A stretch of 36,091 nucleotides of DNA from Rhodoferax sp. (GTDB lineage Bacteria > Pseudomonadota > Gammaproteobacteria > Burkholderiales > Burkholderiaceae_C). The stretch is from contig NZ_JAABQC010000017.1 in the NCBI RefSeq assembly GCF_011391645.1, positions 1 to 36,091 on the forward strand, in the 5' to 3' direction. Each line of letters begins with the position of its first letter. Position 1 is the first letter of the stretch. A model generated the notes under the pieces. It was given only the letters and a program-made list of their open reading frames with translations, had not been told where the DNA came from and did not search any database. The position numbers and the translations under genes are program-made. This document shows positions 11,213-17,790 of the stretch, piece after piece.

Positions 11213-13465
11213 TCAACGCGTCAATGCCATGAACAGCTTGGGCAACTGCTCCGGCAGCCGCGCAATGTTGTCGATCACCGTGTACTGGCGGCCAAAGATG
11301 TCGCTCACATAAGCGTCGGCGCTGGCGTCGAGGTTGATGCAGTAAGTAAATATGCCCTGTTGGTCAAGCTCGCGCACCGCCTGGTGTGCGTCTTCAATCA
11401 GCAGGCGTTCATCGTGCACATCGATGTCGGAGGGTTGGCCATCGGTCAGCACCAACAGCAGTTTTTTGTCAGCCTGCTGTGTGCGCAGGGTGTGCGCCGC
11501 ATGGCGCATGGCAGCCCCCATGCGGGTGCTGTACCCCGCCTGCATGGCGGCAATGCGGGCCTTCACCTCGTCACCCCAGCTTTCACCGAAGCCCTTGAGA
11601 TGCAGGTAACGCACGTCGTGGCGGGTGTTCGAGTGAAACCCGGCAATCGCCAGCGGGTCGCCGAGTTGCTGCACCGCCCAGGCCAGCAGCGAAACCGCCT
11701 CCTGGCTGAGCTGCAGCACAGTTTGCTCCGAGCCACGGGCTCTTTCGTTGAGAGATTGCGACAAGTCGAGCAGCAAGGTCACGGCAATGCTGCGTCCATC
11801 GGTGGTGTGGCTCATGTTGATGCGGGCGTCAGGCTGGCTGCCGGCCCGCAAATCAATCAGGGAGCGGATCGCCACGTCCAGGTCCAGTTCGCTGCCATCT
11901 TCCTGGTAGCGCAGGCGCACCTTGTTTTGTGGCTTCAGTAAATCCAGCAGGCGCTTGAGCTGTTTGGAAAGTGCGCTATGCTTGGTCAGCAAACCATCAA
12001 TGTCGGCCGCATTGCCGCTGGGGTGCAGCCGCTCATACAGGCTCACCCAGTCGGGCCGGAAGGTCTGGCTGGTGTAGTCCCATTCGGGGTAGTGGCGCGG
12101 TGGCAGGCTTTCAAGCTCCTCCTTCGACAAAGTTTGCGACGGCGCATCAAACATTTCCTCGTCATCGCTGAGCTCATGAAAACGCCACAAGTGGCGGTTG
12201 TCGTCCCGGTAATCGACCTCGGTGTCGGCAAACCAGGTGTTGGGCAACTGGTCGCTTTGCAGCCGGGTTTTGCCCAGGTAGCTCAGGGCCAGCCCGGCGA
12301 TTTCGGCAGTGCTGGAGTCGCCCAGCGCCAGCAACGCATGAAAGCGTTGCACCCAGTCGCTGATCTTCACATCCTGAAAGCGCGCCGGTGGGTTAAACAA
12401 GGCGCGCGACAGCATCGCCAATCGATGTCGCAAACATGAGTGTGTGGCCGGGTTGCATGCGCCTTCTGCCGGGTTGGGGTGCAAGGCCATGAAGATGCGG
12501 CGCAAGCCGGGGTACTCGCGCATGGCCAGGGCCTCCACGCGGGCATCTTCAAAACACTCGATGGCCATGCGCTGTGCCGGGCTGAAGTTGTCGCCAAAAA
12601 TGGCCGTGCTCCAGCGCCGGTGCGCCGCGATGTGCGCCAGCGCGGCGCGGTAGCGGTCCAGCCCGGAGATGCCAGCGCGCTCGTCATACACATCGGGCAG
12701 CCGGATGCCCATGGCATCAAAGTAGGGCATGGGCTGGCGCTGCGTATCAAACGCGGTGGAGTAGGGCACCAGCACATCCGCGTCTTGCCACAGGGCCCGC
12801 AGGTACAGGTCAAGCACACGGATGTGGTCCATCAGCAGCGTGCCGTGGCGCTCGCGCTGCAACACCGCGCGGCTGTCGGCGGAGGACAGGCTGAAATACT
12901 CCCGCTGTTGCTCAGGGTGATGGCTGTAGTTGCGGATGCCGTAGTTCACCCAGTTGCTCAGGCCTTGCAGGCTGAGCAGTTCCAGCAACTGGGGGGTTTT
13001 TTCGAAAAAAATTGCCAGACTCGGACTCGGGTAGGTTTTGTGAATGCCGTGGATGGATGTGCTGGTGCGCTCCATCAGGTGCAGACTGACATCCAGAAAC
13101 TGACGCATGTGCGCTTGTGTGGGCAACCGTCGCGCCACGGCTGCCAGGGCCTGCAAAAAAGGCGCAATGGCGTCGCCGTTGGGCGATTTGTTGATCAGTC
13201 GCGCTGCAGCAATCACCGGACTTAACGCGTCTTCGCCAACAAGGCTTGCGATCCGGGGCCATTCCTGCAAAAAAATCAGCGCGGGCTCCGGGCCGCGCCC
13301 CATCTTGCCAAGAAAGCGTGCCTGTGTCAGGTAGTCATCCAGGCCCTCCGCGCTGAGCTGAGCCTGCGCGTCGGCCATGCAGTTGGCAAAGACATCTGCG
13401 ATTTGCGGAAAGTTGCAGCCCAGCTGCGCGCGATAGCTGTCGAGTTGTTCAGCGTTGGGTTGCAT
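11213..13465 (-). CDS. cbbO: CbbO, VWA-domain subunit of RuBisCO activase
   Basis: A protein of about 750 residues with a long helical N-terminal part and a C-terminal von Willebrand A domain. The MIDAS motif reads LLLDLSQSLNER (DxSxS), with LVLTDGQPSD later. CbbO recruits the CbbQ AAA+ ring to RuBisCO so that inhibitory sugar phosphates are released. It is closely related to NorD, but the cbbM-cbbQ-cbbO order settles the call. The start is uncertain: ATG at 13465 is used here; an in-frame GTG at 13486 adds seven residues (MAVPHRT) and leaves 6 bases after cbbQ. Neither has a good Shine-Dalgarno. Confidence 0.92.
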   Translation of the reverse strand: MQPNAEQLDSYRAQLGCNFPQIADVFANCMADAQAQLSAEGLDDYLTQARFLGKMGRGPEPALIFLQEWPRIASLVGEDALSPVIAAARLINKSPNGDAIAPFLQALAAVARRLPTQAHMRQFLDVSLHLMERTSTSIHGIHKTYPSPSLAIFFEKTPQLLELLSLQGLSNWVNYGIRNYSHHPEQQREYFSLSSADSRAVLQRERHGTLLMDHIRVLDLYLRALWQDADVLVPYSTAFDTQRQPMPYFDAMGIRLPDVYDERAGISGLDRYRAALAHIAAHRRWSTAIFGDNFSPAQRMAIECFEDARVEALAMREYPGLRRIFMALHPNPAEGACNPATHSCLRHRLAMLSRALFNPPARFQDVKISDWVQRFHALLALGDSSTAEIAGLALSYLGKTRLQSDQLPNTWFADTEVDYRDDNRHLWRFHELSDDEEMFDAPSQTLSKEELESLPPRHYPEWDYTSQTFRPDWVSLYERLHPSGNAADIDGLLTKHSALSKQLKRLLDLLKPQNKVRLRYQEDGSELDLDVAIRSLIDLRAGSQPDARINMSHTTDGRSIAVTLLLDLSQSLNERARGSEQTVLQLSQEAVSLLAWAVQQLGDPLAIAGFHSNTRHDVRYLHLKGFGESWGDEVKARIAAMQAGYSTRMGAAMRHAAHTLRTQQADKKLLLVLTDGQPSDIDVHDERLLIEDAHQAVRELDQQGIFTYCINLDASADAYVSDIFGRQYTVIDNIARLPEQLPKLFMALTR

Positions 13466-13492
13466 GGTACGGTGGGGCACAGCCACAGGCGC

Positions 13493-14299
13493 TCAGCCAA
13501 ATACTGCGTCAATGGCGTGGTCCAGCGTGGCGCGAATGTCGGCATCGTCGGTGATGGGACGCACCAGCGCCATGCGGCACGCGTCCACTGGCGCGACCTC
13601 GCCCCGAATCAGCGTGGCGGCATACACCAGCAGCCGGGTTGAAATGCCTTCATCCAACCCGTGGCCCTTGAGCGCACGTGCTGTGGCGCCAACCTTGACC
13701 AGACGGGTAGCGTCAGCCAGGGCGATGCCGGTCTCGGTGGCGATGATGCGGGCTTCCAGGTCGGGCTGGGGGTAATCAAAGTCGAAACCGACAAAACGCT
13801 GCTTGGTGCTTTGCTTCAGGTCCTTCATCAGGCTTTGGTAACCAGGGTTGTACGAGATCACCAGTTGAAAATCAGGGTGTGCTTGAATCAACTCGCCCTT
13901 TTTGTCGATGGGCAACTGGCGGCGGTGGTCGGTCAGGGGGTGGATCACCACGGTGGTGTCTTGTCGCGCCTCGACGATTTCATCCAGGTAACAAATGGCG
14001 CCAATGCGCGCCGCGGTGGTCAGCGGTCCATCAAGCCAGCGTGTGCCGTTGGCCTCTAAAAGGTAACGGCCCACCAGGTCGGAGGCGGTCATGTCTTCGT
14101 TGCAGGCCACGGTGATGAGCGGTTTGCCCAGCTTCCAGGCCATGTATTCGACAAACCTGGATTTGCCACATCCTGTGGGGCCCTTGACCATGACCGGCAG
14201 TTTGGCCCGGTAGGCGGCTTCGTAAAGTGCAACCTCGTTCGACTGTTGTTGGTAGAACGGCTCCTGGTGGATTCGGTACTGCTGTGTGGTGTTGGTCAT
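13493..14299 (-). CDS. cbbQ: CbbQ, MoxR-type AAA+ ATPase of RuBisCO activase
   Basis: A 268-residue AAA+ protein. Walker A is GPTGCGKSR (residues 40-48) and Walker B is [13 protein letters not shown] sensor-like [20 protein letters not shown] segment follows. With CbbO it forms a motor that remodels inhibited RuBisCO. Length and order match form II cbbM-cbbQ-cbbO loci. GAGAGC lies just before the ATG. The gene is separated from cbbM by a 390-base spacer full of strong hairpins, which is unusual for genes expected to be co-transcribed. Confidence 0.94.
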
Positions 14300-14353: not shown

Positions 14354-14457
14354 AGCAGCGCGCATTGGGTATCTGACGCCGCTCGTGTCCCCCGTGACGG
14401 GCTTTGCCCGTCCCTCCTCCTTTACCTCGCTATGTCAGACACCCAACGCGCGCTGCT
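14354..14457 (-). repeat. Covarying hairpin element, copy 1
   Basis: Two 24-base arms (14354-14377 and 14434-14457) are complementary except at two positions, both of which become G-U pairs when read on the minus strand. Inside are conserved blocks GCGAGGTAAAGGAGGAGG and CGGGGGACACGAGCGGC (minus strand) around a perfect 7-bp apical hairpin with a three-base loop (14396-14412). Copy 2 shares the internal blocks but has different, still self-complementary stems. This pattern suggests a structured RNA encoded on the minus strand. AAAGGAGG matches an ideal Shine-Dalgarno; the opposite strand would carry an anti-Shine-Dalgarno. Confidence 0.75.
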
Positions 14458-14472
14458 TAAGTTGTGGCTGTC

Positions 14473-14524
14473 TTTGTGGGGCAGACTTCAGTCTGTCATG
14501 GTCGACTGAAGTCGACCCCACAAA
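14473..14524. repeat. REP-like palindromic repeat
   Basis: TTTGTGGGG..GACTTCAGTC (14473-14493) pairs with its complement at 14504-14524 around a 10-base loop, with two internal mismatches. A diverged relative occurs at 28754-28800. It lies between the two larger hairpin elements in the cbbM-cbbQ spacer. Extragenic, probably a dispersed repeat family that may stabilise or terminate transcripts. Confidence 0.75.
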
Positions 14525-14549
14525 ATGCATCCAGTGCAAGTACAGCTCA

Positions 14550-14658
14550 GGCTTGGGGTGGCAGGGTGTCCTGCAAAGCGAGGTAAAGGAGGAGGCATTG
14601 GCCGCAAGGTCAGTGCCGGGGGACACGAGCGGCGCAGGGCACCCTGCCGCCCCAAGCC
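14550..14658 (+). repeat. Covarying hairpin element, copy 2
   Basis: This copy is inverted relative to copy 1. The 25-base arms (14550-14574 and 14634-14658) pair throughout on the plus strand, with two G-U pairs. The conserved blocks GCGAGGTAAAGGAGGAGG and CGGGGGACACGAGCGGC are nearly identical to copy 1, while both stems differ. The apical hairpin (14596-14615) is an 8-bp stem with two G-U pairs and a GCAA tetraloop, a GNRA loop typical of stable RNA. It begins 31 bases downstream of the cbbM stop. Confidence 0.75.
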
Positions 14659-14689: not shown

Positions 14690-16072
14690 TTACTTATGCA
14701 CACCCAACTTCTCACGCCAGCCCGGAAATAGCTTGTCGGCATCCCCCGGGAACGACTCAAACGCCCGGGCAAATTCCTTATGCTCTTTGGCGAACTCGAT
14801 CGGGTCCGCCCCTGCTTTCCAGCACTCATACGACTGGCGCAGGGAGATGGCGCCAGCTGCGGGCGAGTCAATGTGGCCGTAGGAGCCGCCGCCAGAGGTG
14901 TTGATCACGTTGCCGTGGCCCAGATTCTGGAAAAAACCTGGCAGACGCAGCGCGTTCATGCCGCCCGAGATGATCGGGGTGGTGGGCTTCATGCCATACC
15001 ACTTCTGGAAGTAAACCGGGCCCTGCGCTTCATCGCGTTCAATCATGTACGCAATGTTCCTGTCGTCGTTTTCGCCTTCCATCTTGCCGTAGCCCATGGT
15101 GCCGACGTGGATGCCTGAGGCGCCCTGCAGACGCGAAATCTTGGCCAGCACAAACGCGGTGTAGCCCCGCTTGGCAGAAGGCGAGGTGATCATGCCGTGG
15201 CCGGCGCGGTGGTAGTGCAGGTACTGGTTGGGGTACTGGCGGCGCGCTGTTGTGATCATGCCGGGGCCGCCGACAAAACCGTCGACCAGGAAAGCCACTT
15301 TGTCCGCATCCGGGCCGAAGGCTTCCAGAATGAAGTCAGCGCGGGCGCACATTTCATAGTGGTCGTCGGCGGTGATGTTGGCTGAGAATAGCTTGGCCTG
15401 GCCGGTTTCGTCCTGGGCGCGCTTCATGGCGTCATAGACCAGCGGGTAGACCTTCTTGGCCGGGCAGAACACCTGATTGCCTTGCGGTTCATCGTTCTTG
15501 ATGAAATCACCGCCCAGCCAGAACTGGTAGGCGGCCGCAGCAAATGGCTCGGGGCGCAGACCCAGCTTGGGCTTGATGATGGTGCCGGCAATGTAGCCAC
15601 CGTCTTTGATCGGGCGGCCCAGAATGCGCCACATGTCGGAGATGTCTTTGCTGGGGCCGTCAAACAACTGGATGGCACGCTCGGGGAAATAAATGTCGTG
15701 AATCTTGCCGTGCTCGATGTCACCCATGCCCTGGTTGTTGCCAATCACCAGCGTCAGGATCGACACCATCATCATGCGGCCATCGGTGATGTTGCGGTCA
15801 AACAGGTCCATCGGGTAGGCAATGCGCATGTCCTCGGTGGCCTCATCGATGTAATACACCAGCGCGTCGAGTCCGCGTGTGAAATCGTCGGTGGTGGAGA
15901 CTTCAACGTTGGTGCCGGTGGATGACTCGGCCGCAAAGTGGGCGGCGCATGACAAGTAGCTGCCAAAACCGGGCTTTGGCTTCATCTTGTAGGCGACGAG
16001 GATGTGCTTGCCGCCGGCAATGAGGTCTTCTTCCTTGAGGCTCAGGTCAGCGTAACGGTTCGATTGATCCAT
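14690..16072 (-). CDS. cbbM: Form II RuBisCO large subunit
   Basis: A 460-residue form II ribulose-1,5-bisphosphate carboxylase/oxygenase. The catalytic Lys lies in TIIKPKLG (K167) and the carbamylated Lys in [10 protein letters not shown] (K192). The phosphate-binding GGGSYGH motif is present near the C-terminus. Form II enzymes have no small subunit, and none is encoded nearby. They have low CO2/O2 specificity and suit high-CO2, low-oxygen conditions. AGGAGATCTCAC precedes the ATG. The promoter region carries inverted repeats that could be CbbR sites. No carboxysome genes are present. Confidence 0.98.
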
Positions 16073-17140: not shown

Positions 17141-17392
17141 ATGCAGCAAACCGCCAAAATATTTGCCACCGGCCGCAGCCAGGCGGTGCGCTTGCCGCTG
17201 GAGTTCCGCTTTGACGTTTCAGAAGTTTTTATTCGCCACGACCCCGTCACTGGGGACGTGGTGCTGTCACGCAAACCGCAAGACTGGCAAGGTCTGCTCG
17301 ACGTGGTGGCGCAGAACAAGGACGAAGATTTGCTCATTGAGCGCCGCCAAACTCGCGCTCGGCGCGACCCCTTTGAGGGCTGCGAGGAGTGA
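17141..17392 (+). CDS. vapB: VapB-type antitoxin (AbrB-like)
   Basis: An 83-residue protein with an N-terminal swapped-hairpin AbrB/SpoVT DNA-binding domain ([20 protein letters not shown]) and a charged C-terminal tail ([15 protein letters not shown]) expected to wrap the toxin. AGAGAGTTGAACC precedes the ATG. Its stop overlaps the GTG start of the toxin gene, the usual coupled antitoxin-toxin layout. It probably neutralises VapC and represses its own promoter. Confidence 0.9.
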
Positions 17393-17790
17393 GCCGGCGC
17401 TACATGCTCGACACCAAGGTGGTCAGCCACATGATGCAGGGGCGAGATGCCGACTTGTTGGCGCGCCTGACCCAACTGCCTGTGAGCCAGGTGGTGATTT
17501 CCAGCATTACGCTGGCGGAGTTGGAGTATGGCTTGCACCGCAAGGGCCAACCTGTTCGGTTAAAAAATGCCATGGCCCAGATCCTGCTGCGCATGGATGT
17601 GCTGCCATGGGATGAGTCGGTGGCACGCTGCTATGGAGAACTGTGTGCCACGCTTGAAGCCAGAGGCATTAATTTCAGCGACCTTGACATGATGATTGCA
17701 GCCCATGCAGTTGCCGTGGACGCCACGTTGGTAAGTCGTGATCGCGCTTTTACTCAGGCGGCGGATCGTTTGAGACTGGAAGTCTGGTAG
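17389..17790 (+). CDS. vapC: VapC-type PIN-domain ribonuclease toxin
   Basis: A 133-residue PIN domain beginning at GTG 17389, which overlaps the antitoxin stop by 4 bases. The acidic metal-binding residues are in place: D8 (MLDTK), E44 (TLAELEYG), D100 ([11 protein letters not shown]) and D118 (LVSRDRAF). Family members usually read LDTN at the first motif; here it is LDTK, a possible single-base change of Asn to Lys next to the active site that could weaken activity. VapC toxins cleave tRNA or rRNA when the antitoxin is lost. Confidence 0.9.

Follow-up and report, generated by a model that had tools for sequence, protein, structure and literature searches.

In Escherichia coli, a REP/BIME sequence lies between malE and malF, of which the first encodes a highly expressed binding protein and the second a permease, and has been proposed to keep the upstream product in excess. 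BIMEs, or REPINs, are inverted pairs of REP elements (PMC8266576). In Escherichia, Pseudomonas and Stenotrophomonas they are extragenic, multi-copy, placed at 3' ends and apparently non-autonomous, and they combine two different hairpin subtypes, irregular and strand-specific, inverted around a variable linker. MRSC-65-2, a mobile or repeat sequence candidate of diverse phyla with a conserved UYCCGG repeat, has a single long covarying stem, occurs in dozens of copies per genome with inconsistent orientation to genes, and may be of RNA or DNA form (PMC11109978). RF02278 is present in several copies per genome in Betaproteobacteria, and its published members are transcripts of 57-92 nt with terminators (PMC4603805).

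The window analysed here is the whole stretch of 36,091 nucleotides from Rhodoferax sp. (GCF_011391645.1, contig NZ_JAABQC010000017.1, positions 1 to 36,091, forward strand), in which an earlier reading of the letters (the original prediction) had noticed two inverted copies of a structured element between cbbM and cbbQ. In this paper we describe the family to which these hairpins belong, a large one of small mobile DNA repeats in bacteria of the Rhodoferax type, which appears to be undescribed in Rfam and in searchable papers. It shares the traits of BIMEs listed above. Its unit, however, is two to three times longer and contains three helices along with an internal loop that is purine-rich and invariant, its outer stems diverge freely yet remain complementary, it lacks the GTAG tag, and several carriers have no detected RAYT. 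Because three defining REP features fail, namely tag, size and RAYT, we call the family BIME-like and not a member of the REP family. It has the traits given for MRSC-65-2 in common with that candidate, apart from its different core and narrower range of taxa (the window's own family, Rhodocyclales and Xanthomonadaceae-type genomes, the only ones in which it was seen in the analysis). It resembles RF02278 in its occurrence in Betaproteobacteria and in having several copies per genome, but a T-tract is practically absent here and the RF02278 model gave no match even at E<10, and the suspected kinship to that family of toxic small RNAs is not supported.

Two hairpins between cbbM and cbbQ

The features of the locus are collected in Table 1, in which the name cbbO is a presumptive one, taken from the position of the gene adjoining cbbQ. 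Elsewhere in the window, at 17141-17790, two short overlapping genes resemble a VapB-type antitoxin and a PIN-domain (VapC-type) toxin.

Table 1. Genes and hairpin features at the cbbM-cbbQ junction of the window
Feature	Positions	Strand	Basis or remark
cbbO-like gene with VWA domain	11213..13486	-	Pfam PF00092
cbbQ, RuBisCO activase AAA+ ATPase	13493..14299	-	Pfam PF07728, PF08406 CbbQ_C; downstream gene
Element copy A, 104 nt hairpin, adjoins cbbQ	14354..14457	-	covariance model 106.9 bits, E 1.9e-22; fold
Copy A outer stem (24 bp), 3' arm	14354..14377	-	complementarity and fold
Copy A conserved 3' core GGGGGACACGAGC	14381..14393	-	family alignment
Copy A apical hairpin	14394..14414	-	covarying helix 3
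Copy A conserved 5' core GCGAGGTAAAGGAGGA	14415..14430	-	near-invariant in 75 members
Copy A outer stem (24 bp), 5' arm	14434..14457	-	complementarity and fold
Linker between copies A and B	14458..14549	.	not conserved in ortholog alignment
Extra inverted repeat within linker	14473..14524	.	without counterpart in closest orthologue L116
Element copy B, 109 nt hairpin, adjoins cbbM	14550..14658	+	covariance model 102.8 bits, E 1.9e-21; fold
Copy B outer stem (25 bp), 5' arm	14550..14574	+	complementarity and fold
Copy B conserved 5' core GCGAGGTAAAGGAGGA	14578..14593	+	family alignment
Copy B apical hairpin, GCAA tetraloop	14594..14617	+	fold, covariation
Copy B conserved 3' core GGGGGACACGAGC	14618..14630	+	family alignment
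Copy B outer stem (25 bp), 3' arm	14634..14658	+	complementarity and fold
cbbM, form II RuBisCO	14690..16072	-	Pfam PF00016 E 1.2e-120, PF02788; upstream gene in operon direction

The original prediction had placed both inverted copies exactly, and the internal blocks that it described as common to them, GCGAGGTAAAGGAGGAGG and CGGGGGACACGAGCGGC, are identical. Watson-Crick complementarity of the outer stems is 92% in each copy (24 nt in A, 25 nt in B). When the G-rich strand is read, all the mismatches that are left become G-U pairs, so that the stems run uninterrupted in both; these G-U pairs, like the GCAA tetraloop of the second copy, had been read correctly. On this strand each copy forms an outer stem, the conserved internal loop and the apical hairpin, with folding energies of -64.2 kcal/mol for copy A and -79.8 kcal/mol for copy B (z -9.0 and -8.8), and none of 200 shuffled sequences matched the fold. 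The opposite, C-rich strands fold more poorly and their outer stems are broken. A local G-quadruplex, evaluated with ViennaRNA, is marginally favoured in copy A and not in copy B. The inverted repeat within the linker is 21 bp long (TTTGTGGGGCAGACTTCAGTC..GACTGAAGTCGACCCCACAAA) and separate from both hairpins, and no other fetched locus outside the cbbM-cbbQ site has it.

Extent of the family and covariation of its core

A pattern search with the two core blocks, run on 151 genomes of the window's family and on GTDB genomes, found members in 10 of the former and in at least 118 stretches of the latter, from Rhodoferax, Hydrogenophaga, Aquabacterium, Methylibium, Ideonella, Ramlibacter, Rhodocyclales and Pseudoxanthomonas. 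With a covariance model (R1) built from 75 diverse members, 13 copies were found in the window's genome, and members were present in 71 of the 151 genomes of its family; within its genus, 51 of 61 genomes had them, with a maximum of 61 copies. Closely related genomes are included in these counts. Homologues thus exist in many genomes. In a phylum-wide draw, positives were confined to the window's family and one other family of the same class; viral contigs gave no match, and plasmids and phages only chance-level matches with no true homologue. Rfam 15 returned nothing at the gathering cut-off for the window or for five further loci, so that the scan proposed earlier named no family; relaxed thresholds added chance-level matches only, mostly to eukaryotic microRNA models. 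A search of the literature for the core strings or for such repeats returned nothing relevant.

The unit of the family is an imperfect hairpin of 90-110 nt with three helices, an outer stem of approximately 24 bp and a variable apical hairpin. In the alignment of 75 members, 94.1% of pair cells are standard pairs and 36 of 39 pairs include double changes. The covariation score, 0.752, compares with 0.186 in shuffles (none of 500 reached it) and with at most 0.139 in slid controls; the shuffles ignore phylogeny, and the slid controls and the fixed-locus analysis given below agree with them in direction. Covariation in the larger alignment is thus significant. Within a fixed 18-bp segment of the outer stem, 136 G-U combinations were counted against 11 A-C, and among 403 elements G-U exceeded A-C in 332 and A-C exceeded G-U in 12, with a choice of stem that did not reward G-U. 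The large excess of G-U over A-C identifies the G-rich strand as the target of selection for folding. Repair of palindromes templated by the hairpin could also give changes that look compensatory, but it would not yield this asymmetry. Selection on a strand-specific single-strand structure is thus strongly supported, as had been proposed; the strand in question may act as RNA, as the proposal had it, or as single-stranded DNA. A shape that is preserved while its letters change means that the elements probably do something beyond hitch-hiking.

The core is made up of a G-C/C-G step, a tandem G.A, a covarying G-C pair and the strands U-N-AAGG-A-GG-A and GG-G-GG-ACA. In some members the core pair G32-C83 is exchanged for A-U and C29-G86 for U-A, and in some Rhodoferax species Watson-Crick GA/TC or GG/CC stands in place of the tandem G.A step (30-31 with 84-85). 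Positions 40 and 77 covary among the 403 elements (A.G in 361, G.A in 24, C-G in 12 and G.G in none). Because its variation keeps step with position 77, A40 follows a partner inside the element rather than 16S rRNA; the Shine-Dalgarno string noticed in the core is real, and the meaning first attached to it is not borne out. Copies within a genome tend to have the same core variant: 26 of 38 pairs are identical where 10.8 would be expected over all genomes, with a slight excess within pairs over the 21.2 expected within a genome (P 0.009). This sharing fits a trans-acting partner, common descent and conversion between arms alike. An insertion of approximately 18 nt, GGACTTGGGGTTTTGCC, recurs across different copies and species (L311, L313, L324, L329, L375 and L409), in each case at the same position in the 5' strand of the core.

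Placement and mobility

According to a codon-scored gene caller, 383 of the 403 elements lie outside called genes, and in 152 cases the element edge is less than 50 bp from a gene 3' end. Neighbouring elements are arranged (-,+) in 115 of 119 pairs and (+,-) in 4. Few elements lie between divergent genes: 8 of 107 singles and 4 of 224 paired ones do. The flanking genes are diverse, and it is mainly those of cbb and sugar-ABC operons that recur; Pfam and all-against-all clustering of the flanking proteins disclosed no transposase or binding protein as a partner. In Ideonella (L118 1300-2120), several elements and degenerate copies form a tandem cluster, and at L051 6033-6872 an apparently interrupted HNH endonuclease frame lies between left and right elements approximately 1 kb apart.

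One copy in the window's genome, a single hairpin (L252), is absent from the orthologous sites of at least six congeners, where approximately 130 bp are missing, and near-identical hairpin subfamilies (AATCAG..CTGATT and AGGAGCC..GGCTCCT) are found at unrelated sites. From these empty sites and near-identical copies it follows that the elements are mobile. In LinL3, a 349-bp two-hairpin unit (L227 44-392) is bounded by inverted CGGCCYRTTGCAGTCGTTC ends. Neither the empty sites nor the LinL3 termini show a recognisable target-site duplication. The LinL3 unit, with terminal inverted repeats CGGCCCRTTGCAGTCGTTC, is present about 30 times in that genome.

Retention in operons and competing explanations

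Elements are carried by 23 of the 26 cbbM-cbbQ junctions recovered from the genus, a sample that favours occupied sites, as the query contained the elements, and beside which further empty junctions are visible. Among these orthologues 95.6% of outer-stem cells are paired in arm A and 97.9% in arm B, and over the whole structure double changes affect 10 pairs of arm A and 19 of arm B, a result that none of 500 shuffles reached; the linker is unalignable while the arms covary. A pair is likewise held at the cbbM-cbbQ junction of Hydrogenophaga (L031, L039, L040, L060, L126), and L031 and L126 have a second, single element between cbbS and another cbbQ. That many species, and Hydrogenophaga too, retain the pair while its stems undergo compensatory changes suggests a local function, perhaps intercistronic stabilisation of mRNA, although gene conversion from other copies is possible, given the shared subfamily stems. 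A pair between cbbL and cbbS was seen in two genomes, both from a single further genus; these are the only cases among 48 inspected form I RuBisCO loci, and RuBisCO operons are thus no universal site. The architecture of malE-malF is found again in Rhodoferax sugar-ABC operons, where elements occupy the junction of binding-protein and permease genes (L128, L156, L172, L297, L299, L304, L342, L361, L397), and cbbM-cbbQ may be likened to it by analogy; the repeat family here is unrelated in sequence to that of malE-malF. We infer a stabiliser or processing role because the upstream product is needed in excess there, as in malE-malF.

We consider it fairly probable that the cbbM-cbbQ pair is one insertion of a BIME-like, non-autonomous mobile repeat family, with a factor and an operon role as follows. 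By way of the purine-rich core, a putative trans-acting factor would recognise the folded G-rich strand, be it RNA or single-stranded DNA, and would disperse or maintain the elements. Where copies are retained in operons, at cbbM-cbbQ and between sugar-ABC binding protein and permease, the hairpins may form barriers to decay or points of processing in the mRNA and, being intercistronic, would keep the upstream product in excess.

That the elements are instead a host structured RNA, with a G-rich strand that is transcribed and to which a specific host protein binds, and with dispersal only secondary, for example a conserved 3'-UTR or intercistronic regulator, would suit mismatches that are G-U and not A-C, the non-canonical covariation inside the core, the conservation at cbbM-cbbQ and the sugar-ABC operon, and the core variants common to the copies of one genome. 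We judge this unlikely: singles between co-directional genes show no orientation preference (32 sense, 34 antisense), which speaks against most copies having a role in mRNA only, every pair includes an antisense copy, and copy number is as high as 61.

It is a decidedly speculative thought that the family is a new class of mobile nucleic acid, with a three-dimensional purine-core signal and a non-RAYT enzyme, some copies of which have been domesticated in RuBisCO operons. The two GG-N-GG tracts, with central bases that covary (A.G, G.A, C-G), could form G-quartet layers, within one hairpin or between two; the enzyme could recognise the core as RNA or single-stranded DNA with no sequence tag; and the domesticated copies could set stoichiometry at cbbM-cbbQ, cbbS-cbbQ and cbbL-cbbS.

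A true REP/BIME (REPIN), moved as single-stranded DNA by a RAYT/TnpA-REP Y1 transposase, is very unlikely, even though the elements match BIME anatomy (PMC8266576) in their inverted extragenic pairs, their placement at 3' ends, their hairpins specific to one strand and their mosaic of subtypes. The elements measure 90-110 nt and not 20-50, and GTAG stands near the hairpin base in only 12 of 389 on the 5' side and 9 of 389 on the 3' side (CGTC in the flanks: 37 and 43 of 389). Y1_Tnp (PF01797) was undetected in element-rich genomes such as G061 (19 copies, 2 contigs), G021 (21) and G012 (19), among others, and is common in genomes without elements. RAYT was rejected as the partner, its occurrence being uncorrelated with that of the elements.

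A toxic or regulatory small RNA that mimics the Shine-Dalgarno or anti-Shine-Dalgarno, which has in its favour AAAGGAGG and, on the opposite strand, CCTCCTTT, is most improbable in view of the failed RF02278 match, the answer of A40 to position 77 and not to rRNA, a region in which neither a promoter-like site nor a convincing terminator was seen, and a C-rich strand, the bearer of the anti-Shine-Dalgarno, that is not the structured one. Hardly more credible is a pair of intrinsic terminators or an integron attC-like recombination site, suggested by the location between gene 3' ends, as TTTT follows the hairpin in 3 of 389 elements against 27 in a nearby control stretch and both attC boxes (RYYYAAC and GTTRRRY at the two ends) occur together in none of 385.

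The BIME-like family is abundant in environmental Burkholderiales, and hundreds of natural variants define its folded core by covariation, non-canonical pairs included. This raises the question of which enzyme or protein reads the core, the usual REP transposase being sometimes absent. It also offers, in cultivable autotrophs, a natural test of whether mobile hairpins have been recruited to set the ratio of RuBisCO to its activase.
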